From Haliotis asinina (taxonomy: Eukaryota > Mollusca > Gastropoda > Lepetellida > Haliotidae), in the NCBI RefSeq assembly GCF_037392515.1, contig NC_090280.1, forward strand, positions 73,892,504 to 73,956,503: 64,000 nucleotides of DNA, in the 5' to 3' direction. The translations under genes were made by a program, and so were the position numbers. Below are positions 1,655 through 30,809 of this stretch, in pieces. Every line of letters begins with the position of its first letter. Positions within the stretch are counted from its first letter, which is position 1. The notes under the pieces are model-generated. The model was not told the origin of the DNA. It ran no database searches and saw only the letters and a program-made list of their open reading frames with translations.

Positions 1655-1904
1655 TCGTCATAGACGTCACGAGACGTTGGCAGTAACTGGTTTCATCACA
1701 GCCTGGTTCGCTGACCCAGTGTTGAAGCGTTGCACCCAGGCAGGCTTCATCAGTACATTGCGTAAACTTAACAAACTCACTCACTTAAAATGTGACAGAA
1801 AGAACCACTCAAACAAGTACACGATAACGCACAACCTATAGGATTCACACATTGTACCGATGGAGGAATCGAAACGCTTTGACAACTACGACCACCTTTA
1901 GTGA

Positions 1905-2012
1905 CCCTGACCTGTGAAGATACTGGTAAGAAGTGATCACTGGATTGATTGGTCCAGATCGCCGGCATACACCTGGAATATTGCCGAGGGCGGCGATAAA
2001 GAACAAACAAGA
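1905..2012 (+). repeat. SINE-like repeat type 1, fragment
   Basis: The fragment reads GATCACTGGATTGATTGGTCCAGA and on into GGAATATTGCCGAGGGCGGCG, the 3' half of the type 1 repeat in its tail-last orientation. A matching fragment sits at the same place in copy III (33,368-33,480), so the insertion predates the duplication. Confidence 0.7.
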
Positions 2013-3304
2013 ATCATATTCAAACAACTACATTACTGTTTCGTTAACGTTTCCTTCAACGTTGCCTGTGTTGTTGAAAATTTTGCATTGTCATTGTTAT
2101 AAGCCTTCGCCATTCCGAATAACAGTACACACTGTGCGGCACCACATTATGTGGACATCGGCTTGTGTTAATACGTAGGCCGCAGTGAATGTTACAGACA
2201 TCAATCACCTCTTTGGAATGTATTGGTGTGACGGTGTGAGAGCAGCCATTTTGTATAATCTCTTCTTTGGTATGTATTGGTGTGCATAGAACGATAACCC
2301 TTTCACTGTTTACACAAAATAAACTCACCGACGGTGTGAGAGCAGCTATTTTGTAGATAATCTGGGGAGTGACTGGCTCTATGTACTCATATCACGTCCT
2401 GTATTTGCCCGTTACGTTTCCCCGACAAGCTCTTGGCCTTAAGGACCCAGAACGGTAAAATGTTGTAGCCCTGATCAGACCTTATATTTTAGCTACGATA
2501 TAAGTAATTCCCAACAAACAAATGTGACAAGTAAGATAAAGAGTTTAATTTAACCTTAGTGACTGACAAAATCAACATTCATGTCAAGATCCATGTTTTC
2601 GGAAAAGTTTGGAATCTAAATGGCTTCCTCGAAAATGATAGTCTTTTCAAAAAGCTGCTGGGTATATGGACCTGCAGAAAACAAAAGCTGTGTGTCCGAG
2701 TGGTTTTCAGTCGGCTTCGAGCCTGAGGACCGACGTTAATTATAAACCTACTGATGGTTGAGTGAGTGAGTGAATGTGTCTCTTTTGGTGTGTTTCTTAA
2801 CGCCACCGGTCTGTAAAGAAAAATGTCTGGACCCGTTCAATGTCAGGAGAGTTGTGTCCCTTGCCATGGCCATGGAGGGGAAACAACAACCAGTGAATTG
2901 CAGCATACACGAGTGGCATGATCACATGTAATCGTCATGTCACTTTCACACAGACAGTGTGGTCCTAACATCCCCACTGAGCTGGGGAGGATCAAATCTG
3001 GGAATACCCAGTGTTTCTAGGACAGTTTCAGGAAGTGAACGCAGTGTCTTCTCACACAAGAATGACAGTACCATACCCGTACGTGTCAATAATAACTGTA
3101 GGTTTTCCTCCCAGAATGATACTGACAAACCGACACACAGATAAAGGTGGTTCGGCCACATTCACTCACTCGCACAAGTGGTTGTCCAAACATTTTATAC
3201 TTTGCTATACAGGAGCACATCAGTTCCGTTTCGACACATTTTATTACATCACAGTGATACATGTTCATGACAGGCGCGATACACATCGACTGCAGATTTA
3301 GAAG

Positions 3305-3329
3305 ATGGCTTTGACGATGGCTGATACCG
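3305..3329 (+). other. Possible short exon ending at a strong donor
   Basis: An ATG at 3305 opens eight full codons that end in ACCG followed by GTAAGT, a consensus 5' splice site. The donor and the second in-frame ATG are kept in copy III (about 34,913-34,927), but the first ATG is lost there, and copy II has lost the donor. Low-confidence candidate only. Confidence 0.2.
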
Positions 3330-3486
3330 GTAAGTCTCTGGTGAGTGGAGGGCTATCTATTTTCCACCTATGGACAGAGAAGAAAAAAGAAAACAAACAA
3401 TAAATCTTTCTGTCAAAGCAAAGTCACTTCCATGTTTCCGATTATATCATGAGTGACTATGATTTCATTTTTCTTTTGTCCCAGCA

Positions 3487-3712
3487 GTGTGTGTGTGAGG
3501 TTTGTTTAACGTCGCACTCAGCAACATTCCAGCTACTTGGCGGAGGTCTGTAAATAAGCGTGTCTGGACCAGACAATCCAGTGATCTGCACAATTAGGAT
3601 GGATAACAAGTCCTCGAGCTTGACCATCCGATCCCGTTAGGCGCCTCTTACCACAAGCATATGCATGGGTTCCTGAAGATCAGTTTTAACCCGTATCTTC
3701 AGGGATCCTTTG
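3487..3712 (-). repeat. SINE-like repeat type 1
   Basis: The plus strand reads GTGAGG, GTTTAACGTCGCACTCAGC, then ATTCCAGCTACTTGGCGG and GTCTGGACCAGACAATCCAG, ending with a CCGATCCCGTTAGGCGCC block. The shared tail is at the low-coordinate end, so the element is on the minus strand. An equivalent copy sits at 35,083-35,312 in copy III. Confidence 0.8.
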
Positions 3713-4049
3713 ACTCAGGGCACCAGTTTCATCCTATAAAAATACAAATATTGACATGCGACTACCTCAGAAAAAACAGAATAGTGCAGAAATAAAACTT
3801 TGGAACCCAAGTGACAAAATCTAAAAACTAGTTGGGTAGACTTCACCTGCCACACGCCACCCTGCTCTGATGTCATGGCCAGATGAGGCATTGGTGAGGC
3901 AGGTAAATACTGTTTTTACTTTCATCACTGCAAAAATATTTCCTCATAACGTTCGAGGGTCACACTGACGACCCCAGTAGAAGGTGTTGGGCACATATTT
4001 CTCCATGTGATAATGCTGCAACATATGTAACTATACTCAAACACATTCA

Positions 4050-4245
4050 ACTTTGTTGTTGTATGTTGTTTTACGCCGGACTCAGAATATACAGCTGTAT
4101 GATATCGATCTGTAAGCGCGTCTGGATAAGACAATCCAGTGATCACCAGCATGAGTATCGACCGGCTCATTTGGGAACCGATAACATGTGTCAACTAAGT
4201 CAGCAAGTCTGACCACCCGCTCCCGTTACTCACTTCTTACAAGAA
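4050..4245 (-). repeat. SINE-like repeat type 1, diverged
   Basis: TTTTACGCCGGACTCAG, GACAATCCAGTGATCACCAG and GTCTGACCACCCGCTCCCG mark a diverged copy. The equivalent in repeat copy III is 35,640-35,830. Confidence 0.7.
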
Positions 4246-4682
4246 TGACCAAATAATAGTTCGAATCTTGCATTCATACTGCCTCAATTGTTGTGCACCT
4301 AAGTGGTGCTCTAACGTTTCATGGAGGCTCCCAAATCATGTTTGCCAAATTCTGCATGCATTTCATCAAATTCTATTTCACCAGTACATCAACAGAACGT
4401 ATCTGGAATTCAATTACACAACAAAAGAATAGACAAATCAGCTAGAAAGTAAATGCAATATTTAATAGTTATAACTGATAAGTGCAGAATAAATATGTGT
4501 TTAGAGAATCTCAAATCTTGTCCAAAAAAAAAACAAAACCATATGAGCTAGGAAATATAGACTTTTATCTATGAATAATCCAAAATCACTAAATGTCCAA
4601 AATGTCCGAAAAATGTAGAAAGTCACCAAACATATTTATGATTCAATGCTATTAATTATTATATCACACCGCTTACAACGTG

Positions 4683-5216
4683 GCTGTCTCAGCATCCATC
4701 TTAGGCTCACTCCTCAAGAATCCAAACAGTTGCAATTAGTCACTCTCAGTATCCATCTTTAATACACTCCACAAGAATCCGAACAGTTGCAAGTAGTCAC
4801 CTTCAGCATCCATCTTAAACACACTCCACAAACATTCAAACAGTTGCAAGTAGTCATTTTAAGCATCCATCTTAAACACACTCCACAAACATTCAAACAG
4901 CAGCAAGTAGTCATTTTAAGCATCCATCTTAAACACAATCCACAAGAATCCAAACAACTGTAAGATGTCACTCTCAGCGTCCATATTAAACACACTCTTC
5001 AAGAGTCCAAATAATAGCATGAAGGCACTCTCAACATCCGTCTTCACTCTCAGCATCCATCTTAAATACACGCCACAAGAATCCAAACATTTGCATGATG
5101 TCACTCTCAGTATCCATCTTAAACATACTCAAGATTCCAAACAATTGAAAGATGTCACTCCCAGCGTCCATCTTAAACACACTCCACAAGAATCGAAATA
5201 ATTGCAAGATGTCACT
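4683..5216. repeat. 57-bp minisatellite, about 9-10 units (copy I)
   Basis: Units of about 57 bp contain CATCCATCTTAAACACACTCC and CAAGAATCCAAACA. On the minus strand one unit is 19 codons, with residues such as ESDILQLFGFL and SVFKMDA. This is the same frame as, and similar to, the end of the exon that starts directly beside the array (GFLRRVFRA). Several units carry stops, so the array itself is not a continuous coding region. Confidence 0.85.
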
Positions 5217-5420
5217 CTAAATGGCACGGAACACTCTTCTCAAGAATCCAGACACACGTGACATGAAGACTCGGACTGGGGACTGTGCCGGGGTGTCGTC
5301 ATCATCAAGGTTGATGTCAACGAAGTGGGGGCCATCACGGAGGATGGGGGTAGAGAGTGGGGCAGGGAGAGAGGTGAGAGAGGTGGGCAGCACAGACAGG
5401 GGTTCAAGGATGGTCAAGTT
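5217..5420 (-). pseudogene. Unrecognised exon E2, copy I (5'-truncated)
   Basis: The frame encodes MTILEPLSVLPTSLTSLP, then PHFVDINLDDDDTP and PVRVFMSRVSGFLRRVFRA, and stops at 5217. It is the counterpart of the exon at 30,582-30,809, but the acceptor and the codons for RPTGRY seen there have been lost. The reading frame is otherwise open, with mostly conservative differences from copy II, which suggests it was coding when duplicated. I do not recognise the protein. The acidic DDDD run followed by basic FLRRVFR is its main visible feature. Confidence 0.5.
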
Positions 5421-5620
5421 GAGAGTGACAGATGGTGAAAGTAGAGAAAAAAGGTAGATGTTACAAATGGATTGATAGAGTCTTACTCATATTATGAATG
5501 CAATGTGATTTACGTGTCTATACAGCACACACACATTGAGAATAGCGTCTAAATCAACAGTGTTAGTAAATGATACAATAAAATAGCTTTATGAAATAAC
5601 TGATTTCCTGAGACACCCAC

Positions 5621-5679
5621 TTGGCGAGGAGGGGCCCAGATGTCAAAGTTCAAAGGGAACCTGATCACGAGGTCAAGGG
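5621..5679 (-). pseudogene. Unrecognised exon E1, copy I
   Basis: On the minus strand an acceptor TTTTCCCACAG precedes 59 bases encoding LDLVIRFPLNFDIWAPPRQ, followed by a GTGGGT donor. The exon ends in phase 0 and would join E2 in frame. The same exon is at 31,067-31,125 in copy II. The function is not recognised, and because E2 of this copy lacks its acceptor the copy is probably dead. Confidence 0.45.
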
Positions 5680-5830
5680 CTGTGGGAAAAGAACGACTGA
5701 GAGTCTGAGAAATAACCAAACATCAAACAGAACCTGACTGTATCAAACCTTCAACATCAAATTATCGTCATTCAATTCTAACTGATCATTAGTGAACATC
5801 AAAATATGACTAACGCCCAATATGTAGTTA

Positions 5831-8800
5831 ATTCTTCATCTGGTTTTAACAAAATTTATTTTCCTCTGATAACATATATGTATATTTTGACATAGGACGG
5901 GGTTTATGGGGATTGGCAAACAGGCAAAATTGAGTATGTTAATGCCTTTCCCCACATAACATAGAACACACACATACACACACTGAGATGTCACATGTTA
6001 ACTAAAGAAAACAAAACACCTCCGCATTGTTGATGATGGGTACCAAGTCATGTTTCGTGGACTTAAACTGACAATAATGGTACAGTCTTTATGGAGGTGT
6101 TAAATATTGTTGTTAGATTTTATATTTTTAGTGAATCAGTTTGTTTCTTGAATATAACCATGGACTGATGTTGCTAGATTATTACATTCAATATAATTAA
6201 ATCAGCTATCCCTTTACGGAACAATTTTGACATCAAATCCTTTGATGTAGAAGTATCTGTTTCATCTCAAATGATTTAAACCAGGACACCCATAAAAAGT
6301 AACGTAATGGATCCTCTGTGGAATGGCCACAAGCTTAAGGTGTTTTGGCTAAATGCCAATTAACAAAGTGAGAGTTCAAATTGCTACAACCAAGACAGAG
6401 TGTGCATAGTATTATCTGAGAATGGTATGATGCGAAAATCACATACTTTTTGAATTTTTTTACTCATTTTGGTATACTACTAAAATTTGCATACATAGCA
6501 TAAATTCATGGTCTTGTTTAGCTTATGTATAAAATTGTGTAGTTTATTTAATTCCGTTTTAACAAAATATGTATAACTTATAAAAAAAGGCATGTTTGAC
6601 TGATGTCAAGGTACGATTACACCAAATTTTAAATGAGTTAATGGTGAGGGGGATGTGTACTGACTGGGCGTAGAGTACTAGTATGAGTACCTGAAGTGGT
6701 GCTGTCATTGTATAAAACCAAACCATGCCCACATAACTGCATGGGCAATTTTTTTGTACAACATTGGTCTACCGATGGTATAAACCATATGTTCTTTATC
6801 CAGTGATTTACAATACAGATCAGAAGAGCTCTTGAATTTATTTGTATAAATTAGATGAATGTAGTTGATTGGGAGCACCTTTAGAATACACCACCTCAAC
6901 TCAATGTTTGTCTCTATGGCAGATCACCTGTCACTAAGACCAGCAGTCACGGGGTAAGTTCTGTGTGTACTGCTGGTCATAATGCATTCCAAATATCACG
7001 GCCAATATCACAATAAATCGCGTTGAAGCATGTCAGCATAATTGATGTTTTCATGATATGCACATTGGCCACTGTCACTGACTGTTTAGCCCATTCTACC
7101 AGGTTTTAGAAGCACTCATCTAATATGAACGCAATATTTATCAAATCATTTCCGATTTCATGTGAAACTATAACTGAACATATATTTTAGTTTATAAAAC
7201 ATGTATACTGCAGTTCCTACTACACTAAGTCGTCAGAAAAAGAAAAGCATGAATGTTATTTTGAAACACAAATGCCACGTCCACATCCGCGCATCCGCGT
7301 TGAGAATGGTGTTTGTAAACGTTTTTGTGTCGGACCATGTGAATAAAAGAATAAGCTGGGATCAACATGCATCACAATTATATCTTTGCTATCTTTATAT
7401 TCAGTGGACAATAAAGTAATGTGCCTAATATGAACAAAAATTCAAATAAAGATACTGAAAAACTTACATGTGCAGTGTTGATCGACTACTGTTTCCGGGT
7501 CACGGGAGCATACAAGGTCAAACTGGTTCGGCTATGTGCGAATTATATAGTCAAAAATACACCAAGAAAATTCTATGAGCTCTGATTAATCATTTTAAAC
7601 AGTTATTTGTGCTAAAGTTGGGTTTGTCAGACGAAATATCTCCAAATTTTCTGTTAATATTCAATAACGAATGAATTTCATCAGGCAATCCCTGTCTGTG
7701 ACATCACATCCGGTGACCTTTGCACTTACTAGAAAACAAGTTAAATTTCACGATCTTAATTTTCGTCTGTCTCTCGTCATACTAAACGGAAAATGATACA
7801 TGGAACACTTGTAGAATGAGAAATTCTCCCTCTTTCGCCAGGTCTTACACACTGGAGTTCTGTAATCTTTCTTCTGACCAAAAAAGCTATATTTTATGTA
7901 GGAGTTGGACGAAGCGCGCCATGTTTGTTTTTCGTATGTGTAACACGATCTAACACCCTCTTTTTGCGGGTTTGTGCAAAACTTATTGAACCACTTGAAA
8001 TTTGCACTCATGAATGTTTATAAATCATGTATTTTATTCTGCTGTTTTCATGACATGACACGTTTGAATGAACGTAATAGTGCCATTTCAATAAGACCTG
8101 TCATGACATCGAAAATATGATTTGTTTACGACGAACGTTTTCGATTATTTTTTTCAGAATTAATTTTTAATTTGTCGTCGCGCGGATATCTGCCGATACA
8201 AATATGCGAAATTAAAGTCAGATACTTATGAAATATCAGTAGTAAGAATATTGAAATCGGTTTGTGATATTTGGACAATCTATACGGCTCCTAATATAAA
8301 ACGCATCCGGCTGTCAATCGAGCAGTTCAGTTAAATTCAATAAAATTTACTTTATTTATGTTTGTCTTGTAATTAATATCTGTACGTTTGAAATTATCTG
8401 GATATTTTTTGATAATAATGTTTAGTTTTCTATATAGTATTAATGAGCTGAATATTTTTTCAGTTGTTCCTTATTTAGTGACACACCGACTGTTTGAAAT
8501 CACCCACCCTCTTATCAGCGCCTTATGCTGAAATTAATTCAGCAGGCTAAAGGTTAAGATAATAATTAGTTTAAATGATAATATCTAAATAATGTAAACA
8601 GTAAACTGGCCACAGATATACAGATTTGCACTGGGACACCCATGTTGATATCATTATCAGCATGCCCTTGCTTGTCATAAATCATGTAAATGGTCTGTCC
8701 TGTCAACCTAAATTTTGGGACTGCAATTTTCGCAAAAATGTTTATGGATATTCGTTTCATCTTATTGTTTCTCCATAACTTAACAGGAATATATTTGGAA

Positions 8801-8848
8801 TATTTGGAATATCACAATGATCGCCTCTTAAAATTGTTACCTAATAAC
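5831..8848. other. Interval with no supported gene
   Basis: AT-rich sequence between repeat copy I and the right arm of the inverted repeat. Reading frames here are short (under 90 codons), lack splice context and match nothing I know. I see no convincing repeat boundary. Confidence 0.6.
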
Positions 8849-9820
8849 TATCTCAGACAAATCTAAAGTGTTTAAAATTGCCTTTCAAACTAGGCTTCAT
8901 CGTAAATGTCGCCATTTTTCACAATATAGACAATCGCGATTCACAGCGCTATTTGCTGTATGTTTGAAATGTGAAAATCTGATAAATTCAGTCAGTATTG
9001 AATTTCAAAAACAGCATATTAATGATCACTGATATCAAGTTTTCATGTAACAAGTACTGCTAATTCTGCAACGTCGAGGATGAACCCAGAATCAGTTGGG
9101 ATGTTTTCGAAAATACAGTTACACGAACGCCGAAGTGCCATATTGGATAGTGTTTACAAAGTCACGTTTCGAGAGAAGGCCGGTATTGAGACGCCTATTA
9201 TACCATGTATATTTCATAGTCAGCTGCGAAAAATGCATCATTGAATTCCCCACACATCTTAGAATGAAATTACAAATGGTCTTTGTCACCAATACCAACT
9301 GTCTAGATAAAACGAAATGGAAGGTACTGGGTATGAAAACGAACGCTGTGCTCGAAAGACAGCGCTTGTTTGAATGTAAACAAAATAAAAATCCGATTTT
9401 ACACTGCGTGGTATTTTCGGAAATTATCAAACATCCAGCTGTCTAACCATTGCTGACAATGGCTCAATACGCTTAGAATAGTCAGGGGAAGAGTATCGTA
9501 GCAAGAAATAGCAAACTGAAAATAGATATATGCAATCATTTGATAATTCATAAGAAACTAGCAGTTTAGCGTGACGCCATGACTGACGTAAAATCACGCA
9601 GAACAACAACGGTACTTATCGGCATTTCTGGCTTCTTCAGTCATTAACAATGTAAACGATAAAAACATATAACAATACACATATAGTCAGAATAAATCTG
9701 ACTACTTACATCACTTACAAAAGATCCCTGAATCAAGGAAAAAGTCCTCGCAAAATCTGTGTAGGCTTGTCAGCGAAGCCGCCATTTTGAAAGAAGTCGG
9801 TAGTGATGTCACGCGTCAAC
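8849..9820 (-). repeat. Right arm of the ~1-kb inverted repeat
   Basis: This is the reverse-complement partner of 1-1006. The outer end reads GCGTCAAC at 9813-9820, matching GTTGACG at base 1 of the window. Sequence beyond 9820 cannot be compared because the partner flank is missing. The two arms enclose about 7.8 kb. That arrangement fits either a foldback-type element or an inverted duplication, and no transposase is visible between the arms. Confidence 0.85.
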
Positions 9821-10860
9821 ATTGTTGCATAGATCAGGCAATTTCTTTGAGGTGAAGGTCGGTTGAACAAGAGTAAACACAATGGCCATATCATACCGGT
9901 TACACTTATGACATAACGCCTAAATGTACCATGATTTGTCAGTGGCTGTCAATTGAACATAGTTTGGCATCTTGTAGGTGTTATTTGGAGTAAAATCCCA
10001 AATATATCCCACAAGCATTAGATTTGTAAAGATATGAAAGTGTGACATGACTGTGGGAGTGTTGTGGAAAATTCATAGCAGGGAAATATGAAAACGTAAC
10101 TTATTTCGTGTGTGTTGTATGTGTTGTTGAATGCTCATCCACAGTATATTAATTACTTTATGGTATTTTGTTGATAATTATTTTTTCGTTTTGTTAAAAA
10201 AACGTTTTATGCAAATTTCACATACCCCAGCAAGTGTATTTTTCCCGTTTGAAGAATACTTATTTAAAGTGCATAGTTTACAACTCTTGTCTCTCGTCAG
10301 ATTCAATTTTTACAACTAGAAAAAAACATAATTCTGCACGTTATCCAACTGTAGATTATTTCAATGATAAACTAAGACAAAATCATTAACCGAAAAGAAA
10401 CACGTGGAGATCTGTTCTTTCACAACAGATCATGCATTGTATTTAGGCATGGCAGATTTTACGGCAACGGCATAATCTGCAAAGGGAAACCACTCCCATC
10501 TTGCGTAAAAACTAAAATTAGCTGCCTTTGAGTTATTGAAAAGGTCATGGCCACTGCTAATCGCATGCAGACACCTTTCGTTACTATCCTTTCCTTGTTT
10601 ATCAAAAGGGTATGGTGTTCATACTTTTTCAAACACTGAATCGGGTGAGAATTGTACTCAATGATATCGACTCGATAACGATGTTGTTCACTACCTCAAA
10701 TAACGATATTTCAAACGTTAAATCGATGTTGCATTCTCCGTGTTGTTGAAGTGTCGAGGCGAATCATACAGTTTTGTGCAATATAAAAGCAATCCCCAAA
10801 CGCAAAGCTAATTATTTGCGTGAAACTGACAACAACTTGAACGCCATTTTGCTACTGACT
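9821..10860. other. Interval with no supported gene
   Basis: AT-rich unique sequence outside the inverted repeat. No reading frame, RNA gene or repeat could be supported. Confidence 0.6.
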
Positions 10861-12244: not shown

Positions 12245-12468
12245 AGCTCCCGGAGTTCCTTCGTTTCCCTACATCAGGATGAATAAAGTAAATAAGTCAT
12301 GAAAGAAAGCAAAAAAAGGCAACAATTAACTATTGTAGAAATAAAGAAATACCTTGCGTGTAGGAGTTCATGATGACAACAACTGGTAATGAGCAGATCG
12401 TGAGGCACCTGTCCACAGAAATTCAGCAATATCGCAGAGGTTTGATGGATGGCATCAGAAGTGAAACT
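12245..12468 (+). repeat. Left part of a promoter-like repeat module, split by a transposon
   Basis: This matches copy I from about 1380 and copy III from about 32,740 (for example TACCTTGCGTGTAGGAGTTC), and ends in AGAAGTGAAACT. The module resumes at 20,461 on the far side of the transposon. The uninterrupted relatives give the pre-insertion layout. Confidence 0.85.
12459..12468. repeat. Target site duplication, left copy
   Basis: AAGTGAAACT directly precedes the left terminal repeat and is repeated exactly at 20,461-20,470. In the uninterrupted modules at 1.6 kb and 32.9 kb this decamer occurs once. Confidence 0.9.
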
Positions 12469-13448
12469 CATTCGTAACTACTCGGGTCATTCCGGAAAGC
12501 CTGTACAAAGACTTTTTACGACCACAGCCATCAGATATCATGCATATATCGATAATATGGTACCTTCACTTAAATTACATGTTTAGTCATGTTACATTTA
12601 CAAGCTGTTTTGAAGCATGTTAGAAGAGCTTGTTTTCTTTTTCTTTTGAAATAATTAACTTGGAATGGATGTTATTACTTAATCTTTTTTATATACATAC
12701 GTGCTTTAATACAAATGTATTAATCATAGCATTCCTTCAATCGAAATTTGTTTTTATTTCTGGAAATTTATATTTTGTTTCCAATTGGTTTCATCTCCTG
12801 TTTTAAAGTTGAAAATGAAAGAATACATTATGAAATAACGATATAAATAATAATAACATGAATTATAATGCCATGAGTTATGTGAACCATCAACATGTAG
12901 ATTTTAATTACTTGTTTTGTTCAAATTTAATTTGTTTTGCAGTTCCAGGTTCCATGCATGCCTGCATGTTGTTTACTGTGTTGTTTATGGTGGGGTTGTT
13001 TTTCATGAAAACAAAAAAACATTGATGTCCTCACTCTCAAAATCTCTGCTGGCAAAAAAAAATCATTTTTGGTATGGAATTCTACAATGTACATGTATTA
13101 CCATGTAAATTCACCAAAATATGCTACATGTACATTTTAGCCGTTACTTAAGCGTGATTATGTTAACTGGAGATGAAGTCATCAAAGTTTATTAGGTCTT
13201 TTATTAAGCGACATAGTGTGCACCACCATAGATTTCATATGTTTACAGTATCTGTTACCCGTTCATGTGTCTCCTGTTCTTTGTTTGAATTTAAGCATAT
13301 TTGACCACTAAAGAGAAGATGGTATCCAGACATATCAAGTAAGTCATTTTCTTAAAAACCTAATTGACATATATATGGTAATCAAATGTTTATTGAAATA
13401 TTGTTATTGTTCAAAGTAAGTTCCTAAATGTTGTCACAAATATTTCAG

Positions 13449-16426
13449 CTTCTCTCAGTTCTAAACAAGATCCACGTCACACTGTCGGACAAGACCAAAG
13501 ATCAGCTGTTGGACAGTTATGCAGCACACTGTGAAGATAACATCATACAGACAATTTCTTCAGGTTATCTTGATACTGATACTTAATTTCAGTAGAGGTA
13601 CGTTTACAATCAAGCCCCATTGCAGTAAATCCTTCCCAGTAGTCTTATACTATGGCATAAGTGCCTCAAACATGCTGTTAATTAATTTTTTATTGTTTAA
13701 ACAATCTGTGTAGTACAATATGTACATTGTATAAATTCTCAGGTCACAATTTGTGTAAAAACTGCTATCAATATCTGTAATGTCATACGTTATAGCATAG
13801 GATTATCATCATGAATCAGAAGTTCAAATTTGCTTGAAGAAGAATTATGTGTAGAAACTGATTTGTAATTTGTTTGTACAGGTTTGGATGGGAAGCTAAA
13901 TGGTGACAATCTAGATTTGAGAGTAACTACAAACGATGTTCGAATGACAAACAAGAGTAAGGACTACCATTTCTTTGCTTCTGACTTTGTTGCGGACAGG
14001 ATTGATGTTTCGCAATTGTCGAACAAAGCTCCTCAGAAAGAGGTGGAATCAGTGGGTGCAGATGACTTCCTGCCTACATGTGAAGAAATCAGAAAGTTTA
14101 AAGAATATTTAAAGGTCTTGCTGGCAAGGAAATTAGTAGAGCATGTAGATGCATTCAGCTGGATGAAAAGTCTCATTCCAACCCATGTTCCATATGCTAG
14201 ACAAGTAGAGACGTCAAAGGCTTCATCAATTCAGTTGTTGCCAATCATATTGAAAAATGAGGCATCATACTCTGGCTGTATTGACATAATGGATGCCTAC
14301 GTCAAGCACATCAACCACTGGTATGCCAAAGCAGGAAGGGATAAATGTTTCATTGTTCCTATAAGATTCTGTTCAATCATGGCATCTATACATATATAGA
14401 ACAATGAAATTTTTGAGATTATGTAAATGATTGTCATTTCATATATTAAATATTACCTACATTTTGTATTCATTTTCATAAATTTACACACAGCAGTTTG
14501 TAGTTGTTGCATGATTTTCCTTTCAAATGTATTCATATGTATTTAATCAATGAATATTGCATTTCGGGCTCAGAACTTGAAACATTACAAGTTCCGGTGG
14601 GTGGGGACCAACTGACAAGAGTAAGACTCCAAGGAGCAAAAGCCTTGAGGGAAGGGACACACACTGTGCAGTCAGTTGGGACCAGTCATTGTGGAAATGT
14701 TCCACACTCTTCAAGATTTTCTTGAGGTAGAGATGATACTATCACAAATATGTTGCCCTTATTCTTAAGTAGACAAAGCATATGAGGGTTAGCGGGAATG
14801 ACATGAAGTGAAACATCAAAACACTTGTGAGTTTAACCGAACCTATCAGGTTCTTGAATACATTTTTACTGCTGACACATAGACAAATAGCTTAACTTCA
14901 AAATTAACCTCTCAAGCAATGTTGACTATGCCAAATGAGTGTAATTGCCTCGTATGTATCAGTCCATAACTTTTCAATGACTATTTTGAATGCACATATT
15001 GAAATTGATGAAATATATCATATATTTTGGATTACTCTTTCTTTGTAAAGTACATATTCTAGTACTTTTGTTGGCTGACTTTGTGTGATAGCAATTAGGT
15101 GCCTGACCCTGAGGGTGTGGGGTTTGAATCAAGGATGGGATGCCAAACAAAAGGACCAGAGTCTGTACTTACACAAAAGTGTAATAGCAGATACAACATA
15201 TGTTATAATGACCTTTATGAAAATGTCTTTGCAATTATTGGCAGAAATTATGCAGGAAGTTTCTCAAGCTTGACAAGGGAATTGACAAGGCACGCTTGGA
15301 CATTTGAAACTGGTCATTCAAAGGTCAAATGTTGATGGGAAAGTGAAAGTGCGGTTTAAGGTACTTTTATCTCTTTTTGATTAATTCCGTCGAATTTAGC
15401 AAAGTGGCAAAAGAGTGACCGTAGGTACAAAAGCTTCAGATGTAAGAGAAAACTATGATTGATAATACAGTATTCTACACCCACAATATGGTGGTTATCA
15501 ATTTGCTTAATTATCACTACAATTTAGGCATGAACCTGAATGCTAAACTGAATGTTTTCCAGGCACATGAACAGTTTGTAGATGTTGTGGGCACATCATA
15601 CTTTCTTCAACTGACGAAGCACATGTTTGGACTCAAGGAGTTGAGCGATGACTTGAAACATCCAGATATCCCACCAAAGGTGAATTTGTGGCACAACAAA
15701 AAAAAGAGGAAGTGTTTCACAGAATCATGGACCTACTTTTGGATAATATGTTCATTCCACCAGTGGACCAGGAAAAGGTTGTTGTTTTTTTTTCATTATG
15801 TGCTTGCCGTACAATATGTATAACTATTTTAGTGAATGAAATGGACTGATGTTATGATTTTCATTTTGAACTACTGGAATTTCAATAGAACAACCTGCTT
15901 GAACGGTCTAGAAATTTGCTGATAATACTTCCGATAAATTTTATTGTTGTTACATTTCAGTAGTAGGTTTGTTTCTGTTGTCCTCACCAATAAAAGGTAA
16001 ATTTGTTCCTTAAAGAAGTGGCCTTTCATGTGTATATATTCTCAATTTAGCATTTCAACCCAGTTTTGTTTGTACCCCTAGAAATCTGAAGCAGACAAGT
16101 GCAACTTGACAGTTGTCAAAATTTCAAAAGTTGCACCAGTTGTTGAAAGCATTTCTGATAATGTAGTGTCTTTGACAAAATCTGCTGACTATCACACAAG
16201 TCACAGACAGAGATCATCTTTTGATGACATCAAGGAGATACTGTCTGTCCTGCAGACAAGTAACCCATGGATAGTTACTCCTGGAAGGCAGCTAAAAGGG
16301 TTCCAAGGAATTAGTCAGACCCTGTTTTCCTTCAACGTGCAACAGATGAGAAACAGCATCCAGACTAATGTGGACCGTCTGAAAAGGGGAGTTGTGTTTG
16401 TGCCTGATGATGATGAAGTGGAGTAA
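13449..16426 (+). pseudogene. DUF6589-like (Academ-type) transposase, degraded
   Basis: At least five exon-like blocks follow one another with sensible splice sites: 13,449-13,563; 13,882 to about 14,340; 14,574-14,726; 15,563-15,679 and beyond; and 16,082-16,426, which ends in TAA. The first two join in frame. The second starts with NGDNLDLRV and the third has VPVGGDQLTRVRLQGAK; both contexts are typical of DUF6589 proteins, where the aspartates are candidate DDE residues. The fourth block has FVDVVGTSYF and MFGLKEL. Two frame breaks are apparent, near 14,670 (before QLGPVIVEMFHTLQDFLE) and near 15,680 (before EFVAQQKKEEVF). No N-terminal third was found between the terminal repeat and 13,449, so it is deleted or unrecognisable. 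The assignment to Academ is from memory of the family. Confidence 0.7.
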
Positions 16427-17579
16427 AAATGACTGTAAGTCATGGATTGAAACTTATACACTAATACAGTTGTCAGAACATTCTATTTTGTGGGCCACTG
16501 ATTAAAAATTGTACTTTGTGACAGTAAATCTACTTTCTGATACATGTTGACTGTGTACCACTGAAATCACACCTGACTTTTTCTGTGTGTCAAAACCTTA
16601 AATGTTCATTGTGCGTACTGTTCTTGGTCTTACACAAGGAAAAGACAGTAAAGCATTTGCATGTGACATTGGTAAGGATTAAGGTCACAATATTTGTATC
16701 TTCAAAAGTACAATTGTCAATGTTTTCACTTCAATGTAAGTGTGTATGAGAAATGATCACATTAAGTCCAGTTAACAATAAGTAACATTTTTATTTAGTA
16801 GACTTCAGACATTCTGCACAATACATTATGATCATATAAGATGACAGGAACATAGGTTTAGTGAAAAAACATTGATGCTACCAAGTTGACATGTAATTTG
16901 CATGAAAGTAATTGCAGCCCCATTTATTTTATAAAACCAGGAAAGTGTATGGCACAAAATTAGCCTTTTTACACAATGTAATTACATAACCTGACCTGAT
17001 AGAATTTGAGATTGTGCAATTGTCAAATGTAACATAAAAATCTTTTTGCATTTACTTTCATGCAAAACTATAGTTTTGAAATTTTCTTTGATAATTGTTT
17101 CAGAGGGTATTTATGATGGAAATATATATTTTGCAGTGTCTCACGTTTGTTGATACACTTATGTCTTACATAATTTGTTCTATGCTCTATGTGTATATCC
17201 AGTTTGATAACCTTATACCAGAAAATAAGGAGTTGGGACAAAGATAACTGTAATAAACTTTGAGCAAATTCAGTGATCGTTCTTCATGCCGGGTCCTATG
17301 GCCATTTGAGTTCCCTATTTAAGATTCCAAGTCACTTCACGTCATAACTTTGCAATCATACAGCACATAATTGTTTTCATGGGATTCCTGATGATGAAAT
17401 ATCACAATATACCCTTCTAGATTTAGCTGAGTACAATACTGGGGACCCTCAGGTAGCTGAATCATTGTTAGTGTCAGCAGCCCTTGTCGGCAGAATCTGC
17501 ACATCCTCGGTCTTACATTTCTGAGAGCATACTTGCTTTGTCCACACGGACTCAAACATGTTTTATGATCACATATTTC

Positions 17580-20167
17580 ACATTCCTGTATGAGCTATCC
17601 TGCAGTTAATGCAACAGTCAGCTGAGCTATCAGAAAAGATGACTGACTCAAAACCAAAATATGAAACAAGCTGCAGCCTTAAGCAAGTGGTCCTGTTTGT
17701 ACAGTACTTGATCATTGCCTGTGTCATATCCTAACGTTTCTTTGCAATGTCATTCTTGTTGTAATACAGTAGGGCACTAGACTTTTTGCCATCTCGTCCT
17801 GCTCGACCTATTTCCTGGAAATATTTCTCAAGGGTTGTAGGGGGTTCAAAATGGATTACACGTCGTATGCTAGGTGCATTCAGACCCATGCCTAAGGCAA
17901 CAGTGACAAGGACCAACCCAATTTTGGGGTTTTCTTTCCTCAGTTCACACACAATATGGGTTTACATTTCATCTGTGTACTTGTGGTACTGGGCAAAAAT
18001 TCTGTTTTCTGGAATGTGTGATTCTGTAGGAATGTATGCCTTTTCCTTTAGATGTCTTGCTACATAGTGATAGCAGTATCCCAGTGCCTCATCATTGTTG
18101 ATGTAAACAACTGTCAGGGGGAATTCAGCCAGACGATTACTAAGGTCTTCAGCAAGTGTTTGAATTAGGTTGTCTAATTTTTCGTGTTTCCTGATATTTG
18201 GCAGACGAGTTTGAATCTGAAAGAAGTGGGTTTAGATATAGCAACTGCCCAAATTTTCATTTGCAGTAGACTGAATTTTTTTTACTGATCTCTCATGTAA
18301 TAATACATCATTGTTATTATTCAGGTTACTTGTGTTATATCCTATCAATACATCTAGAGTTAGCATCAACTCATATGGTTTGGTATTTCCTCCAGAACAT
18401 ACATTATGTAGATGCTTTTACTAAAATGACCTACAAAAGTAATGCTTGTACTATATACATCGTTTCTATGTTTGGTCTGACATCTGTGCAATAACCATAA
18501 GGATATCTAGTGTAATGAAAAAGATTTTAAAAAAAAACCAAAACAAATGATACCTCTAGAAAAATGTTGACACGATCAGGGTTTATTCTGATCGTCTTAA
18601 AGTCAACAACCTGAAGGTCTGCAGCAAGTTCTTTAACGGCTTGAGGGGTAGCAGTTGCAGTCATTGCCAGATGAGCAGCATTAGCAAAAATGCAGATAAC
18701 CTCTGATAATTTCTTGAATGCTTTTCTAAATTTTGGACCCCTGTAGAAATGAAACAGGATATATAAGGCATTTCCATGGTATACAATGCATAGTGGTATC
18801 ACGTGTTTGTCTGAAGAACCATTGTTCTTGGATACACAATTTATTAATTTCATGGAACTCATTAAGAGATTGAAATGTTGTTCATATATTGTAACAGTGT
18901 TTTTACTTCAAATTTATTCTTTCTGTTTATTAGCAGTCAGGGATAAATGTTATCTTGGTTATGTTTGAAGGATGTGATATATTGTATATGTCTGTTAACA
19001 ATTCACTAATATTCAGAAGTGTTGTTATTGACACCCAAAAAAGCATACAAATGATGTCTAGATGATTCCTTTTGGAATGACACATATAGTAAAATTAGTA
19101 AGAGAGTGAGTGTAATATAATGCTATGTACAGCAACATTTCAGCAAAATCAACAACGATGAGCAAATGCTTTAACCACTAGGCTACCCCACCCACCTCGT
19201 ATGTTCTTTAGAATCATGAGGCAAATACCTTTTACTTGCTAACTCAATATTAATGGTTTGTATTTGAACCAGGCTGAAGAAAATGTTCTTCCTCATTGAA
19301 AAAAGCCTGAAGTTATCCTGCTCATGCTCACCATTCAGATATCACGTGCACTTCATCAATAACAACAGCGCAGACTTTCTCTTGGAAAAGTGGAGATCTG
19401 AGTAGACTTCCAACTGTCTTGTTGTTGAGAAGAGTCTCTGGATGGGCATAGATGATGTTGAATTATCCCTGCCGCAGTTCTTTCATGTTGACATAAGTTG
19501 GCGCATGAATGTCATTTTCAGTTACTTCGTCTTCATCTTCATCATTCTCCTCCTCTTCTTCTTGCTTCTCCACATCAATCTGAGATCATCTTGTAAGTCT
19601 TTCCAGCATTACCTGTGAATACACACACCATCGTCATTTCAGTACTAACAAATGAAAGGGCTTCGTTACTTAATAATATTGTTTGTATATATAGAAGTAG
19701 TGAGCAAACACTAACTACATACACACACTCACACGGTATGGGTGGGAACACCCTTATTAATATTATGACAACATGAAGTTTATGACACTCCGTCATGTGA
19801 TGGAGGTGACAGTCTGAATTACCATTAACGATCTCAATATAAAAAAATGACTACCTTGTGAATTAAGAAAACAGGTTTCGATCCCTCGGTCACACAATGA
19901 CATAACCTGGTCCTGCATCAAGGAATTGAGGGGACACACAACGATGACCATCCCTGGATTTGACAGATCCTTTTGGAGCAGCCACGGTAAAAGTTGAAAT
20001 ATAACACTTTTGCCATATCCAGTTGGCAAAACGGCTATACAGTCATTTCCCTCATAAAGATGTCTCAGTGTTAAGAGTTGCTGATCCTTCAGCTCAAAGT
20101 TAATGTTTAACTTGTGCTTTGCATACTTACGCGAAGTTTCAAAGTTTGACGGTGTCGCTATTTCCAC
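17580..20167 (-). pseudogene. RecQ-like superfamily II DNA helicase, decayed
   Basis: There are four exons: 19,855-20,167, 19,332-19,612, 18,554-18,740 and about 17,580-18,216. Phases agree at the junctions. The ATG at 20,167 starts a protein with FELKDQQ (motif 0), LPTGYGKS (motif I, about residues 47-54), CPLNSLMQDQV (Ia), VVIDEVHVISEW (II, DEVH), MTATATP (III), LTVVYINN (IV), TVALGMGLNAPS (V) and EIGRAGRDG (VI). A RecQ-type zinc-binding segment follows (TCLRLQLVSYFGFE, then CCINC). Family members unwind DNA 3' to 5' using ATP. This copy is broken by a frame change near 19,585, by TAA after MKELRQG (about 19,464) and after YHKYTDEM (about 17,964), and by TAG after NDIAKKR (about 17,733). 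It lies wholly inside the transposon, so it is a passenger or transposition helicase, not the host RECQ or WRN gene. Confidence 0.85.
19155..19197 (-). repeat. SINE type 2 head fragment inside the helicase intron
   Basis: GAGCAAATGCTTTAACCACT and AGGCTACCCCACCC are the complement of the tRNA-like head of SINE type 2. It lies in the second intron of the helicase, so it inserted after or during the life of the transposon. Confidence 0.6.
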
Positions 20168-20460
20168 GCTTCGATATGCAGGAAAATGTTCACACGCAAA
20201 ATATTTTATAATATAACACAGTAGTCACTGTAAGTAAGTTTCTTAGCCCGTTAACAAATATCAGTAGCCAAAAAATTATATGATCACAGAAATAAACATT
20301 AAAATCGAAAATCACTAAGAAACTATTTCAAACCTTTTCACATATTACTACGCGCAATTTGATTGGTTTGCCACGATTCTAGGCAGTAATGGCGTACGAT
20401 AGGGGTACGAGCCTTCTTGCAGGTTACGGAAAGAGACGAGTAGGCGAGTAGTTACGAATG

Positions 20461-20545
20461 AAGTGAAACTGTCCTCATAGCGACGTCATAAATCTCGCGA
20501 GATCGTCATAGCATTGCGTGAAGTTAACAACTGGTTTCATCTGTA
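20461..20545 (+). repeat. Right part of the split promoter-like module, with CGCG element
   Basis: It begins with the second copy of AAGTGAAACT, then CATAGCGACGTCATAAATC and the palindrome TCTCGCGAGA at 20,493-20,502, and continues to AACTGGTTTCATC as in copy I. Together with 12,245-12,468 it forms one interrupted module. Confidence 0.85.
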
Positions 20546-20667
20546 CCTTGCGCAAGTCAGGATCCCAGTCACGTTTCTACTTGTATTGTATTATGAAGTA
20601 CATACAGAAACCTCCTTATCAAGTTCATAGGGTATCAAGTTCATTAAGAGAGCTTGTGGACACGCGT

Positions 20668-23600
20668 TCCATCCCTCTACTAGAGCTCTGTGATCCACTA
20701 CTGCTGGGTGACGTGTGTACATACGTGGAACAAGTTCACCACAAGCATGGTCAGTTGGGTCGAGGTCTGCTCGCCATTCCATCCCTCTACTAGAGCTCTG
20801 TGATCCACTACTGCTGGGTGACGTGTGTACATACGTGGAACAAGTTCACCACAAGCATGGTCAGTTGGGTCGAGGTCTGCTCGCCATTCCATCCCTCTAC
20901 TAGAGCTCTGTGATCCACTACTGCTGGGGGACGTGTGTACATACGTGGAACAAGTTCACCACAAGCATGGTCAGTTGGGTCGAGGTCTGCTCGCCATTCC
21001 ATCCCTCTACTAGAGCTCTGTGATCCACTACTGCTGGGTGACGTGTGTACATACGTGGAACAAGTTCACCACAAGCATGGTCAGTTGGGTCGAGGTCTGC
21101 TCGCCATTCCATCCCTCTACTAGAGCTCTGTGATCCACTACTGCTGGGTGACGTGTGTACATACGTGGAACAAGTTCACCACAAGCATGGTCAGTTGGGT
21201 CGAGGTCTGCTCGCCATTCCATCCCTCTACTAGAGCTCTGTGATCCACTACTGCTGGGTGACGTGTGTACATACGTGGAACAAGTTCACCACAAGCATGG
21301 TCAGTTGGGTCGAGGTCTGCTCGCCATTCCATCCCTCTACTAGAGCTCTGTGATCCACTACTGCTGGGGGACGTGTGTACATACGTGGAACAAGTTCACC
21401 ACAAGCATGGTCAGTTGGGTCGAGGTCTGCTCGCCATTCCATCCCTCTACTAGAGCTCTGTGATCCACTACTGCTGGGGGACGTGTGTACATACGTGGAA
21501 CAAGTTCACCACAAGCATGGTCAGTTGGGTCGAGGTCTGCTCGCCATTCCATCCCTCTACTAGAGCTCTGTGATCCACTACTGCTGGGGGACGTGTGTAC
21601 ATACGTGGAACAAGTTCACCACAAGCATGGTCAGTTGGGTCGAGGTCTGCTCGCCATTCCATCCCTCTACTAGAGCTCTGTGATCCACTACTGCTGGGGG
21701 ACGTGTGTACATACGTGGAACAAGTTCACCACAAGCATGGTCAGTTGGGTCGAGGTCTGCTCGCCATTCCATCCCTCTACTAGAGCTCTGTGATCCACTA
21801 CTGCTGGGTGACGTGTGTACATACGTGGAACAAGTTCACCACAAGCATGGTCAGTTGGGTCGAGGTCTACTCGCCATTCCATCCCTCTACTAGAGCTCTG
21901 TGATCCACTACTGCTGGGGGACGTGTGTACATACGTGGAACAAGTTCACCACAAGCATGGTCAGTTGGGTCGAGGTCTGCTCGCCATTCCATCCCTCTAC
22001 TAGAGCTCTGTGATCCACTACTGCTGGGTGACGTGTGTACATACGTGGAACAAGTTCACCACAAGCATGGTCAGTTGGGTCGAGGTCTGCTCGCCATTCC
22101 ATCCCTCTACTAGAGCTCTGTGATCCACTACTGCTGGGGGACGTGTGTACATACGTGGAACAAGTTCACCACAAGCATGGTCAGTTGGGTCGAGGTCTGC
22201 TCGCCATTCCATCCCTCTACTAGAGCTCTGTGATCCACTACTGCTGGGGGACGTGTGTACATACGTGGAACAAGTTCACCACAAGCATGGTCAGTTGGGT
22301 CGAGGTCTGCTCGCCATTCCATCCCTCTACTACAGCTCTGTGATCCACTACTGCTGGGGGACGTGTGTACATACGTGGAACAAGTTCACCACAAGCATGG
22401 TCAGTTGGGTCGAGGTCTGCTCGCCATTCCATCCCTCTACTAGAGCTCTGTGATCCACTACTGCTGGGGGACGTGTGTACATACGTGGAACAAGTTCACC
22501 ACAAGCATGGTCAGTTGGGTCGAGGTCTGCTCGCCATTCCATCCCTCTACTAGAGCTCTGTGATCCACTACTGCTGGGGGACGTGTGTACATACGTGGAA
22601 CAAGTTCACCACAAGCATGGTCAGTTGGGTCGAGGTCTGCTCGCCATTCCATCCCTCTACTAGAGCTCTGTGATCCACTACTGCTGGGGGACGTGTGTAC
22701 ATACGTGGAACAAGTTCACCACAAGCATGGTCAGTTGGGTCGAGGTCTGCTCGCCATTCCATCCCTCTACTAGAGCTCTGTGATCCACTACTGCTGGGGG
22801 ACGTGTGTACATACGTGGAACAAGTTCACCACAAGCATGGTCAGTTGGGTCGAGGTCTGCTCGCCATTCCATCCCTCTACTAGAGCTCTGTGATCCACTA
22901 CTGCTGGGGGACGTGTGTACATACGTGGAACAAGTTCACCACAAGCATGGTCAGTTGGGTCGAGGTCTGCTCGCCATTCCATCCCTCTACTAGAGCTCTG
23001 TGATCCACTACTGCTGGGGGACGTGTGTACATACGTGGAACAAGTTCACCACAAGCATGGTCAGTTGGGTCGAGGTCTGCTCGCCATTCCATCCCTCTAC
23101 TAGAGCTCTGTGATCCACTACTGCTGGGTGACGTGTGTACATACGTGGAACAAGTTCACCACAAGCATGGTCAGTTGGGTCGAGGTCTGCTCGCCATTCC
23201 ATCCCTCTACTAGAGCTCTGTGATCCACTACTGCTGGGGGACGTGTGTACATACGTGGAACAAGTTCACCACAAGCATGGTCAGTTGGGTCGAGGTCTGC
23301 TCGCCATTCCATCCCTCTACTAGAGCTCTGTGATCCACTACTGCTGGGTGACGTGTGTACATACGTGGAACAAGTTCACCACAAGCATGGTCAGTTGGGT
23401 CGAGGTCTGCTCGCCATTCCATCCCTCTACTAGAGCTCTGTGATCCACTACTGCTGGGGGACGTGTGTACATACGTGGAACAAGTTCACCACAAGCATGG
23501 TCAGTTGGGTCGAGGTCTGCTCGCCATTCCATCCCTCTACTAGAGCTCTGTGATCCACTACTGCTGGGGGACGTGTGTACATACGTGGAACAAGTTCACC

Positions 23601-26046
23601 ACAAGCATGGTCAGTTGGGTCGAGGTCTGCTCGCCATTCCATCCCTCTACTAGAGCTCTGTGATCCACTACTGCTGGGGGACGTGTGTACACACGTGGAA
23701 CAAGTTCACCACAAGCATGGTCAGTTGGGTCGAGGTCTGCTCGCCATTCCATCCCTCTACTACAGCTCTGTGATCCACTACTGCTGGGTGACGTGTGTAC
23801 ATACGTGGAACAAGTTCACCACAAGCATGGTCAGTTGGGTCGAGGTCTGCTCGCCATTCCATCCCTCTACTAGAGCTCTGTGATCCACTACTGCTGGGGG
23901 ACGTGTGTACATACGTGGAACAAGTTCACCACAAGCATGGTCAGTTGGGTCGAGGTCTGCTCGCCATTCCATCCCTCTACTAGAGCTCTGTGATCCACTA
24001 CTGCTGGGGGACGTGTGTACATACGTGGAACAAGTTCACCACAAGCATGGTCAGTTGGGTCGAGGTCTGCTCGCCATTCCATCCCTCTACTAGAGCTCTG
24101 TGATCCACTACTGCTGGGGGACGTGTGTACATACGTGGAACAAGTTCACCACAAGCATGGTCAGTTGGGTCGAGGTCTGCTCGCCATTCCATCCCTCTAC
24201 TAGAGCTCTGTGATCCACTACTGCTGGGGGACGTGTGTACATACGTGGAACAAGTTCACCACAAGCATGGTCAGTTGGGTCGAGGTCTGCTCGCCATTCC
24301 ATCCCTCTACTAGAGCTCTGTGATCCACTACTGCTGGGGGACGTGTGTACATACGTGGAACAAGTTCACCACAAGCATGGTCAGTTGGGTCGAGGTCTGC
24401 TCGCCATTCCATCCCTCTACTAGAGCTCTGTGATCCACTACTGCTGGGTGACGTGTGTACATACGTGGAACAAGTTCACCACAAGCATGGTCAGTTGGGT
24501 CGAGGTCTACTCGCCATTCCATCCCTCTACTAGAGCTCTGTGATCCACTACTGCTGGGGGACGTGTGTACATACGTGGAACAAGTTCACCACAAGCATGG
24601 TCAGTTGGGTCGAGGTCTGCTCGCCATTCCATCCCTCTACTAGAGCTCTGTGATCCACTACTGCTGGGTGACGTGTGTACATACGTGGAACAAGTTCACC
24701 ACAAGCATGGTCAGTTGGGTCGAGGTCTGCTCGCCATTCCATCCCTCTACTAGAGCTCTGTGATCCACTACTGCTGGGTGACGTGTGTACACACGTGGAA
24801 CAAGTTCACCACAAGCATGGTCAGTTGGGTCGAGGTCTGCTCGCCATTCCATCCCTCTACTAGAGCTCTGTGATCCACTACTGCTGGGGGACGTGTGTAC
24901 ACACGTGGAACAAGTTCACCACAAGCATGGTCAGTTGGGTCGAGGTCTGCTCGCCATTCCATCCCTCTACTAGAGCTCTGTGATCCACTACTGCTGGGGG
25001 ACGTGTGTACACACGTGGAACAAGTTCACCACAAGCATGGTCAGTTGGGTCGAGGTCTGCTCGCCATTCCATCCCTCTACTAGAGCTCTGTGATCCACTA
25101 CTGCTGGGGGACGTGTGTACATACGTGGAACAAGTTCACCACAAGCATGGTCAGTTGGGTCGAGGTCTGCTCGCCATTCCATCCCTCTACTAGAGCTCTG
25201 TGATCCACTACTGCTGGGGGACGTGTGTACATACGTGGAACAAGTTCACCACAAGCATGGTCAGTTGGGTCGAGGTCTGCTCGCCATTCCATCCCTCTAC
25301 TAGAGCTCTGTGATCCACTACTGCTGGGGGACGTGTGTACATACGTGGAACAAGTTCACCACAAGCATGGTCAGTTGGGTCGAGGTCTGCTCGCCATTCC
25401 ATCCCTCTACTAGAGCTCTGTGATCCACTACTGCTGGGGGACGTGTGTACATACGTGGAACAAGTTCACCACAAGCATGGTCAGTTGGGTCGAGGTCTGC
25501 TCGCCATTCCATCCCTCTACTAGAGCTCTGTGATCCACTACTGCTGGGTGACGTGTGTACATACGTGGAACAAGTTCACCACAAGCATGGTCAGTTGGGT
25601 CGAGGTCTGCTCGCCATTCCATCCCTCTACTAGAGCTCTGTGATCCACTACTGCTGGGGGACGTGTGTACATACGTGGAACAAGTTCACCACAAGCATGG
25701 TCAGTTGGGTCGAGGTCTGCTCGCCATTCCATCCCTCTACTAGAGCTCTGTGATCCACTACTGCTGGGTGACGTGTGTACATACGTGGAACAAGTTCACC
25801 ACAAGCATGGTCAGTTGGGTCGAGGTCTGCTCGCCATTCCATCCCTCTACTAGAGCTCTGTGATCCACTACTGCTGGGGGACGTGTGTACATACGTGGAA
25901 CAAGTTCACCACAAGCATGGTCAGTTGGGTCGAGGTCTGCTCGCCATTCCATCCCTCTACTAGAGCTCTGTGATCCACTACTGCTGGGGGACGTGTGTAC
26001 ATACGTGGAACAAGTTCACCACAAGCATGGTCAGTTGGGTCGAGGT
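20668..26046. repeat. 110-bp satellite array, about 49 copies
   Basis: A 110-bp unit beginning TTCCATCCCTCTACTAGAGC repeats head to tail for 5,379 bp with almost no length variation. Differences are mainly at a few sites: CTGGGTGACG or CTGGGGGACG, GTACATACG or GTACACACG, CTAGAGC or CTACAGC, and GTCTGC or GTCTAC. The unit is not a multiple of three, so the many 62-64 codon frames on both strands are by-products. The last unit breaks off at CGAGGT (26,046) about 60 bases before a Tc1-like relic. Confidence 0.97.
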
Positions 26047-26104
26047 TTCAATTGTAAGACCTTGATAGATTGTACTCTTTGCATTACATTTTTATTATAA
26101 AATT

Positions 26105-26930
26105 ACCAATACTTTGAAATAGGGTAACATCCTCCAAACTCTACATTCCTTAAAAGTAATGTGTATCGGTTCCTCTGGGGCCTCGGCTTTATTATTTTTC
26201 AACGAATGGAGAGTTACTTGGGCATTACTCTCTACGTTATCGGGTCGACCATAAAAGCCATGCATTGCTTGCAGGTATGGTAGTGCCATAGGAGCCCGAA
26301 TTACGTCCCGATAACCCTGACCAGTCGGAATACCGTTGACCATGTGTAGTAGCTTACGTTCATCAAGAGTTATCCCTGCCCAAAGCATGGTTGCATCTGT
26401 GATTCGCTCTCCATTGCGACGATAAATTCTCTGCCGACCATCATGGAAGGACAAATTGAATCTGCTATCAACTATGAAGAGCACGCGAGACCATGGACGT
26501 TGATTCCAGCGGCCATGATGTCTACTCCATCTCAGACGCACCTGCCTGTAACGAAGTGTTAGTGGTAGACGAACTGCCTGTATACCGAAGTCCGAATGCC
26601 TGTAAACGTCAACGAACGGTGTTCCTTGACATCCTTACATTGAACACTGTAGTGTTCAGTCTGAAGATCTGCTCTGTTAAAGAATCGGTTATGTAACCCA
26701 GTTTTAATCATGCATCTTTTATCTCGGACAGTTGTGACTCTGGGGCGACCATGTCGACGTGCATATTCTTCCACAGAGCAATTGCCTTGAAATCTCTGCC
26801 ACAATCTACCAATAGCACTCTGACTCTGACGTTAAAGCGGACAACAACCTGCCGGTGAGTTGGACCACACATTCCGAAAGTCCATAGAATGACCCCGTTC
26901 AGCAAGAGTAAGCTTATACTGCGATTTCAA
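26105..26930 (-). pseudogene. Tc1/mariner-like transposase relic
   Basis: Minus-strand pieces encode, in order, an N-terminal helix-turn-helix region (THRQVVVRFNV; LWQRFQ equivalent; ARRHGRPRVTT), then LQTEHYSVQ, then a catalytic-domain block with WSRVLF, SRFNLSFHDGRQR and LWAGITLDERK. The usual first catalytic motif FSDESRF reads FIVDSRF, so the first aspartate is lost. A PDN remains near the second aspartate site. The C-terminal part with the third acidic residue is absent and the sequence ends near the 110-bp satellite. Frame changes separate the pieces. This is a dead, truncated Tc1-like copy. Confidence 0.85.
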
Positions 26931-30054: not shown

Positions 30055-30590
30055 CAAGATGTCACTTTAAGCGTCCATCTTAAACACACTCCACAAGAAT
30101 CCAAACAATCACAAGATGTCACTCTAAGCGTCCATCTTAAATAAACTCCACAAGAATCCGAACAGTCACAAGATGTCACTCTAAGCGTCCATCTTAAACA
30201 CACTCCACGAGAATCCAAACAATCACAAGATGTCACTCTAAGCGTCCATCTTAAACACACTCCACAAGAATTCGAACAGTCACAAGATGTCACTCTAAGC
30301 ATCGATCTTAAACACATTCCTCAAGAATCCAAACAATTGCAAGATGTCACGCTCAGCATCCATCTTAAACACACTCCACATGTATCTAAACAATTACAAG
30401 ATGTCACTCTCAGCATTCATCTTAAACACACTCCTCAAGAATCCAAACAATTGAATGATGTCACTCTAAGCGTCCATCTTAAACACACTCCTCAATACTC
30501 CAAACAATGTTGCAAGATGTCACTTTCAGCGTCCATCTTAAACATCTCTCTCAAGAATCTAAATAATTGCAAGATGTCACTCTAGGCATC
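30055..30590. repeat. 57-bp minisatellite, about 9-10 units (copy II)
   Basis: GATGTCACTCTAAGCGTCC starts units at 57-bp steps (for example GTCACT at 30,061, 30,118 and 30,175). On the minus strand the units run on directly from the stop codon of exon E2 and keep its frame. Confidence 0.9.
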
Positions 30591-30809
30591 CATCTTGGCA
30601 CGGAACACTCTCCTCAAGAATCCAGACATACGCGACAGGAAGACTCGAACTGGGGACTGGGTGGGGGTGTCGTCATCATCAAGGTTGATGTCAACGAAGT
30701 GAGGGGCGTCAGGGAGGACGGGGGTGAAGAGAGGGGCTTGGAGAGAAGTGGGAGAGGTGGGCAGCTCAGACAGGGGTTCAAGGATGGTCATGTATCTCCC
30801 AGTAGGACG
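30582..30809 (-). CDS. Unrecognised conserved exon E2 (copy II, intact)
   Basis: On the minus strand a pyrimidine-rich acceptor (CTTCCTGTCAG) precedes 76 codons ending in TAG. The product starts RPTGRYMTILEPLSELPTSP, continues with DAPHFVDINLDDDDTPTQ and ends SGFLRRVFRAKMDA. E1 at 31,067-31,125 would join it in phase 0. The same exon is in copy I (5'-truncated) and copy III (frame broken), with most differences at third positions or conservative. I do not recognise the family. A captured fragment of a host gene carried by the repeat, or a diverged paralogue cluster, both fit. No start codon exon was found, so the gene here is incomplete. Confidence 0.55.
   Translation of the reverse strand, partial: RPTGRYMTILEPLSELPTSPTSLQAPLFTPVLPDAPHFVDINLDDDDTPTQSPVRVFLSRMSGFLRRVFRAKMDA

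Follow-up and report, generated by a model that had tools for sequence, protein, structure and literature searches.

An intact pair of terminal inverted repeats (TIRs) and a target-site duplication (TSD) bound a transposon of 7,992 bp at positions 12469-20460 of the stretch of DNA analysed here (64 kb in all, hereafter the window). With complete ends but apparently dead genes, it very probably belongs to AcademH, an already described lineage of cut-and-paste DNA transposons, as a new, decayed representative whose insertion is clean but ordinary. An earlier note, made from the sequence by itself, had called the element whole-length, a description that holds for its ends, where TIRs and TSD are intact, and fails for its genes, in which stops and frame breaks are found; neither this decay nor the two empty copies of the target repeat is mentioned in the note.

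Ends, target duplication and empty sites

Sequence matching places the left TIR, CATTCGTAACTACTCG, at 12469-12484 on the + strand and the right TIR, its reverse complement, at 20445-20460 on the - strand, and the two are identical at 16 of 16 positions. Allowing up to three mismatches, CATTCGTAACTACTCG is found at only two sites in the 64-kb window, which are the two ends of the element, and the perfect 16-bp TIRs described in the earlier note are thus borne out. In a shuffle control for the pair, none of 100 trials gave two matches at up to two mismatches and one in 100 did so at up to three. Identity between the ends stops after 16 bp (17 matching positions in the first 20 bases, 18 in the first 30), and the terminal bases of the element are CA..TG. 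At the right end the motif CGAGTAG occurs as a pair, at 20437 and 20445 (span 20437-20451), with its second copy within the TIR; such a pair is absent at the left end.

Adjoining the left and right TIRs respectively are two copies of AAGTGAAACT, at 12459-12468 and 20461-20470, identical at 10 of 10 positions; among all lengths from 1 to 30 tested, the flanks match at 10 only. When the window was scanned for inverted repeats of at least 12 bp with flanking direct repeats of at least 6 bp, six rows were returned, two of them the element itself (with 8 and 10 bp) and the remaining four other loci with 6-bp direct repeats, while the same scan on 30 first-order Markov sequences returned two rows in total.

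The strongest proof of the insertion boundaries comes from empty sites. A comparison of the flanks with the window sequence identifies the target of insertion as a dispersed repeat, of which the left part (12254-12458, compared as 12254-12468) is 86% identical to 32748-32970 and 82% identical to 1400-1622, and the right part (20471-20541) is 94% identical to 32961-33025 and 86% identical to 1613-1697. Both paralogues, spanning 1400-1697 and 32748-33025, are uninterrupted and carry one AAGTGAAACT each, at 1613-1622 and 32961-32970; exactly four matches to this decamer exist in the window, namely the two TSD copies and one per empty paralogue. The joined 70-nt pre-insertion site likewise matches 1603-1672 (12 mismatches) and 32951-33020 (6 mismatches), a third match (20451-20520, 7 mismatches) being the right end of the element itself. 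Because each of the two empty paralogues holds a single AAGTGAAACT, both boundaries are fixed to the base and the 10 bp arose by duplication, in agreement with the earlier note; this evidence concerns one insertion and the two other copies of the target repeat found in the window. At 12447-12448, 11 bp to the left of the TSD, the interrupted repeat lacks ten alignment columns that are occupied in both of the empty ones, probably through an unrelated small deletion.

Transposase and helicase genes

Two multi-exon genes, both decayed, face each other convergently within the element: a transposase at 13450-16426 on the + strand and a RecQ-family helicase at 17580-20200 on the - strand. Exon edges of both were judged by eye, and single lesions may be misassigned. 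The transposase, recognised from reading frames and a match to PF20231 (DUF6589), consists of exon-like pieces at approximately 13450-13560, 13881-14345, 14570-14710, 15235-15350, 15566-15780 and 16082-16426, which were joined at the judged exon edges, with an X at each of three frame breaks, and searched against Pfam. The joined product matches DUF6589 at 83.8 bits (cutoff 27), the alignment covering positions 9-256 of the 410 in the profile, and it matches no other Pfam family with an E-value of 0.1 or lower. Taken by itself, the central core scores 49.7 bits, and the longest exon 24.8 bits, under the cutoff. The earlier reading of a DUF6589-type transposase is supported by the score of the joined pieces, in which the match stops at profile position 256, leaving the C-terminal part either missing or unrecognised. 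The frame changes near 14660, 15285 and 15690, the last of these at a run of eight A that could reflect a sequencing error.

NCBIfam returned no match for two of the transposase exons, and no mention of DUF6589, which we take to be the Academ transposase, was found in a full-text literature search. Relatives were also sought in three sequence collections. Exon 2 gave 2 pattern matches and the X-joined core 21 in viral_contigs, and exon 2 gave 19 in genome_contigs, none of which was confirmed; phages gave no match. As all three collections are viral or prokaryotic, the lack of confirmed relatives among them says little.

The helicase is recognised from Pfam, NCBIfam and PDB matches. Its X-joined product carries DEAD (68.6 bits), Helicase_C (40.4 bits) and RecQ_Zn_bind (33.5 bits, cutoff 25), all exceeding their cutoffs, and reaches 218.3 bits against TIGR00614 (RecQ family), just under the cutoff of 219.8. 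Among 38 PDB matches listed at E <=1e-10, 35 are named RecQ, Bloom, Werner or helicase Q1, Q4 or Q5, and the other three bear only the name 'ATP-dependent DNA helicase'. The domains above cutoff and the RecQ-type PDB matches together uphold the RecQ-like helicase of the earlier note. ResIII (30.6 bits) overlaps DEAD and was read as the same helicase core, not as a separate domain. Just past the zinc-binding domain, in another frame, lies a cysteine-rich - strand ORF (17337-17594) with a sub-cutoff Pfam match only, possibly a C-terminal extension of the helicase.

Four in-frame stops interrupt the helicase, at 19588, 19465, 17964 and 17733. That at 19588 falls in a linker that is acidic and not conserved, where an intron edge may have been misjudged, and that at 19465 lies within a stretch aligning gap-free to RecQ chains in the PDB. 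The stops at 17964 and 17733 are within the Helicase_C and RecQ_Zn_bind Pfam matches; in the PDB alignment, the aligned stretches do not include the former, and the latter stands next to an insertion.

Beyond these two genes, a Pfam scan of all 27 ORFs wholly inside the element (stop-to-stop, at least 60 aa) placed only DEAD and Helicase_C above cutoff. No other transposase family exceeded its cutoff in any of the 27 and neither did a nuclease family, although a decayed, shorter nuclease gene could be missed at this ORF length. Flu_NS2 (18.2 bits, cutoff 25.9) and the other sub-cutoff Pfam rows, DUF6589 excepted, were taken as chance.

With four stops in the helicase and three frame breaks in the transposase, both genes look broken, whereas the ends and TSD are intact over 26 of 26 base pairs. 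At a pairwise divergence of 5%, 26 base pairs would stay unchanged with a probability of 26%, and at 10% with one of 6%. Four stops and three frame breaks could have built up over a few percent of divergence following insertion and so give no ground for placing the decay earlier; the genes may have died beforehand, the copy then moving in trans, or afterwards.

The surrounding window

Neither the TIR search nor a comparison of the element with the 64-kb window revealed another copy of it there. Its sole non-self match in the window involves 35 bases (19157-19191), 86% identical to 62166-62200 (E 2.4e-4), which may belong to a short dispersed repeat. Further afield, the 16-bp TIR is present in six viral_contigs stretches; none of the six has an inverted partner at up to three mismatches, and the element has a single blastn match to them (22 bases, right end, in L004, E 0.008), judged to be chance.

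A 110-bp satellite (20667-26046; 48.9 copies, 99% matches) begins some 200 bp beyond the right end of the element, and a 93-bp satellite (95.1 copies, 98% matches) occupies 49959-58798. The unit length of the latter is divisible by 3, so that both of its strands carry long ORFs, among them one of 3,017 aa that is taken as spurious. Three separate arrays of units of about 57 bp, alike by eye, lie at 4687-5254, 30055-30596 and 36375-36630. The arms of a long inverted repeat, at 126-1006 and 8849-9711, lie about 8 kb apart, with pieces 85-91% complementary, and are perhaps the long TIRs of a large DNA transposon; of 31 ORFs of at least 70 aa overlapping 1-10500, seven were scanned and gave no Pfam match at E 0.01. 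On the - strand, a 179-aa ORF at 26095-26634 resembles, as judged by eye, a fragment of a Tc1/mariner transposase and had no Pfam match at E 0.1. The window contains no tRNA gene and no Rfam match at the gathering threshold.

Probable placement in AcademH and proposed mode of insertion

The nuclease of AcademX is XPG, and AcademH is reportedly due to Kojima, in 2020. Judging from the element's own features, namely its helicase, its 10-bp TSD and DUF6589, the last presumed to be the Academ transposase, it probably belongs to AcademH. According to PMC10045372, AcademH encodes a helicase and has TSDs of 9 or 10 bp, AcademX has a nuclease and TSDs of 3 or 4 bp, and this difference in TSD length seems tied to the possession of helicase or nuclease. 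Compared with that description (PMC10045372), the element, with its RecQ-family helicase and 10-bp TSD, differs from AcademH in none of the features tested, and itself looks inactivated. It presumably shares a superfamily with AcademX, from which it differs in having a 10-bp TSD in place of 3 or 4 bp and in carrying a helicase, the 27 ORFs of at least 60 aa giving no nuclease family above cutoff.

AcademH, the label offered in the earlier note, is supported as the best one by the pairing of helicase and 10-bp TSD. By the same paper (PMC10045372), the suggestion that a 10-bp duplication might be undescribed is wrong, TSDs of 9 or 10 bp having already been given there for AcademH. Nor did the hope of an under-described system hold up: a RecQ helicase in Academ was mentioned in 2013 (PMC3627910), and a survey of molluscs counts 100 curated Academ families with a mean length of 5,565 bp, third in family number behind TcMar and hAT and almost restricted, among molluscs, to bivalves (PMC10294476).

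Three other readings of the element were weighed against AcademH. Transposons of the Kolobok type target TTAA, whereas the empty sites here give AAGTGAAACT as the duplicated target, the ends are CA..TG, and the transposase belongs to another family, matching DUF6589 with no different transposase family above cutoff in the 27 ORFs. A RecQ-bearing Kolobok-like element is accordingly most improbable, even though KolobokH and Kolobok-1_CCri (the latter from a red alga) likewise combine a DDE transposon with a RecQ helicase, which Kolobok-1_CCri carries on the complementary strand, the same orientation as found here (PMC9587614). The length of the TSD would also suit a Mutator-like element (MULE) that had captured a RecQ gene, TSDs of MuDR and the related IS256 being given as 4 to 10 bp in PMC10045372; this origin is nonetheless very hard to credit, as the MULE marker domain pfam10551 (PMC8290104) is absent among the matches listed for the 27 ORFs and the X-joined transposase. 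Under a third reading, the element would belong to a DUF6589 lineage distinct from Academ and as yet without a name, with the same pattern of helicase and 10-bp duplication. In its favour, the link between DUF6589 and Academ is itself a presumption. We consider it quite unlikely, given that the pairing of a helicase with TSDs of 9 or 10 bp is that given for AcademH in PMC10045372.

With AcademH as the preferred placement, the course of insertion can be sketched. DDE transposases carry out strand transfer at staggered positions on the two strands, after which the gaps are filled. The TIR-bounded unit of 7,992 bp entered the dispersed repeat with exactly 10 bp of that repeat duplicated: an intact transposase may have joined the TIR ends to points 10 bp apart on opposite target strands, and gap repair after strand transfer would then have produced the TSD. 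The RecQ helicase may have served as an accessory factor, perhaps in the opening of the ends or in the repair of donor or target gaps. Movement in trans after the death of the genes is conceivable, because the ends and TSD are intact while the genes carry about seven lesions. A fuller version of this idea, in which the convergent layout marks a separate sub-lineage, the helicase too sets the 10-bp stagger and the copy moved in trans once its genes were dead, strikes us as unlikely.

The element opens no new system. It provides instead a base-exact case of a 10-bp TSD made by a helicase-bearing DNA transposon, with a pre-insertion site that can be read twice within 64 kb, and it fits the published pattern in which helicase-bearing Academ elements have long TSDs and nuclease-bearing ones short.
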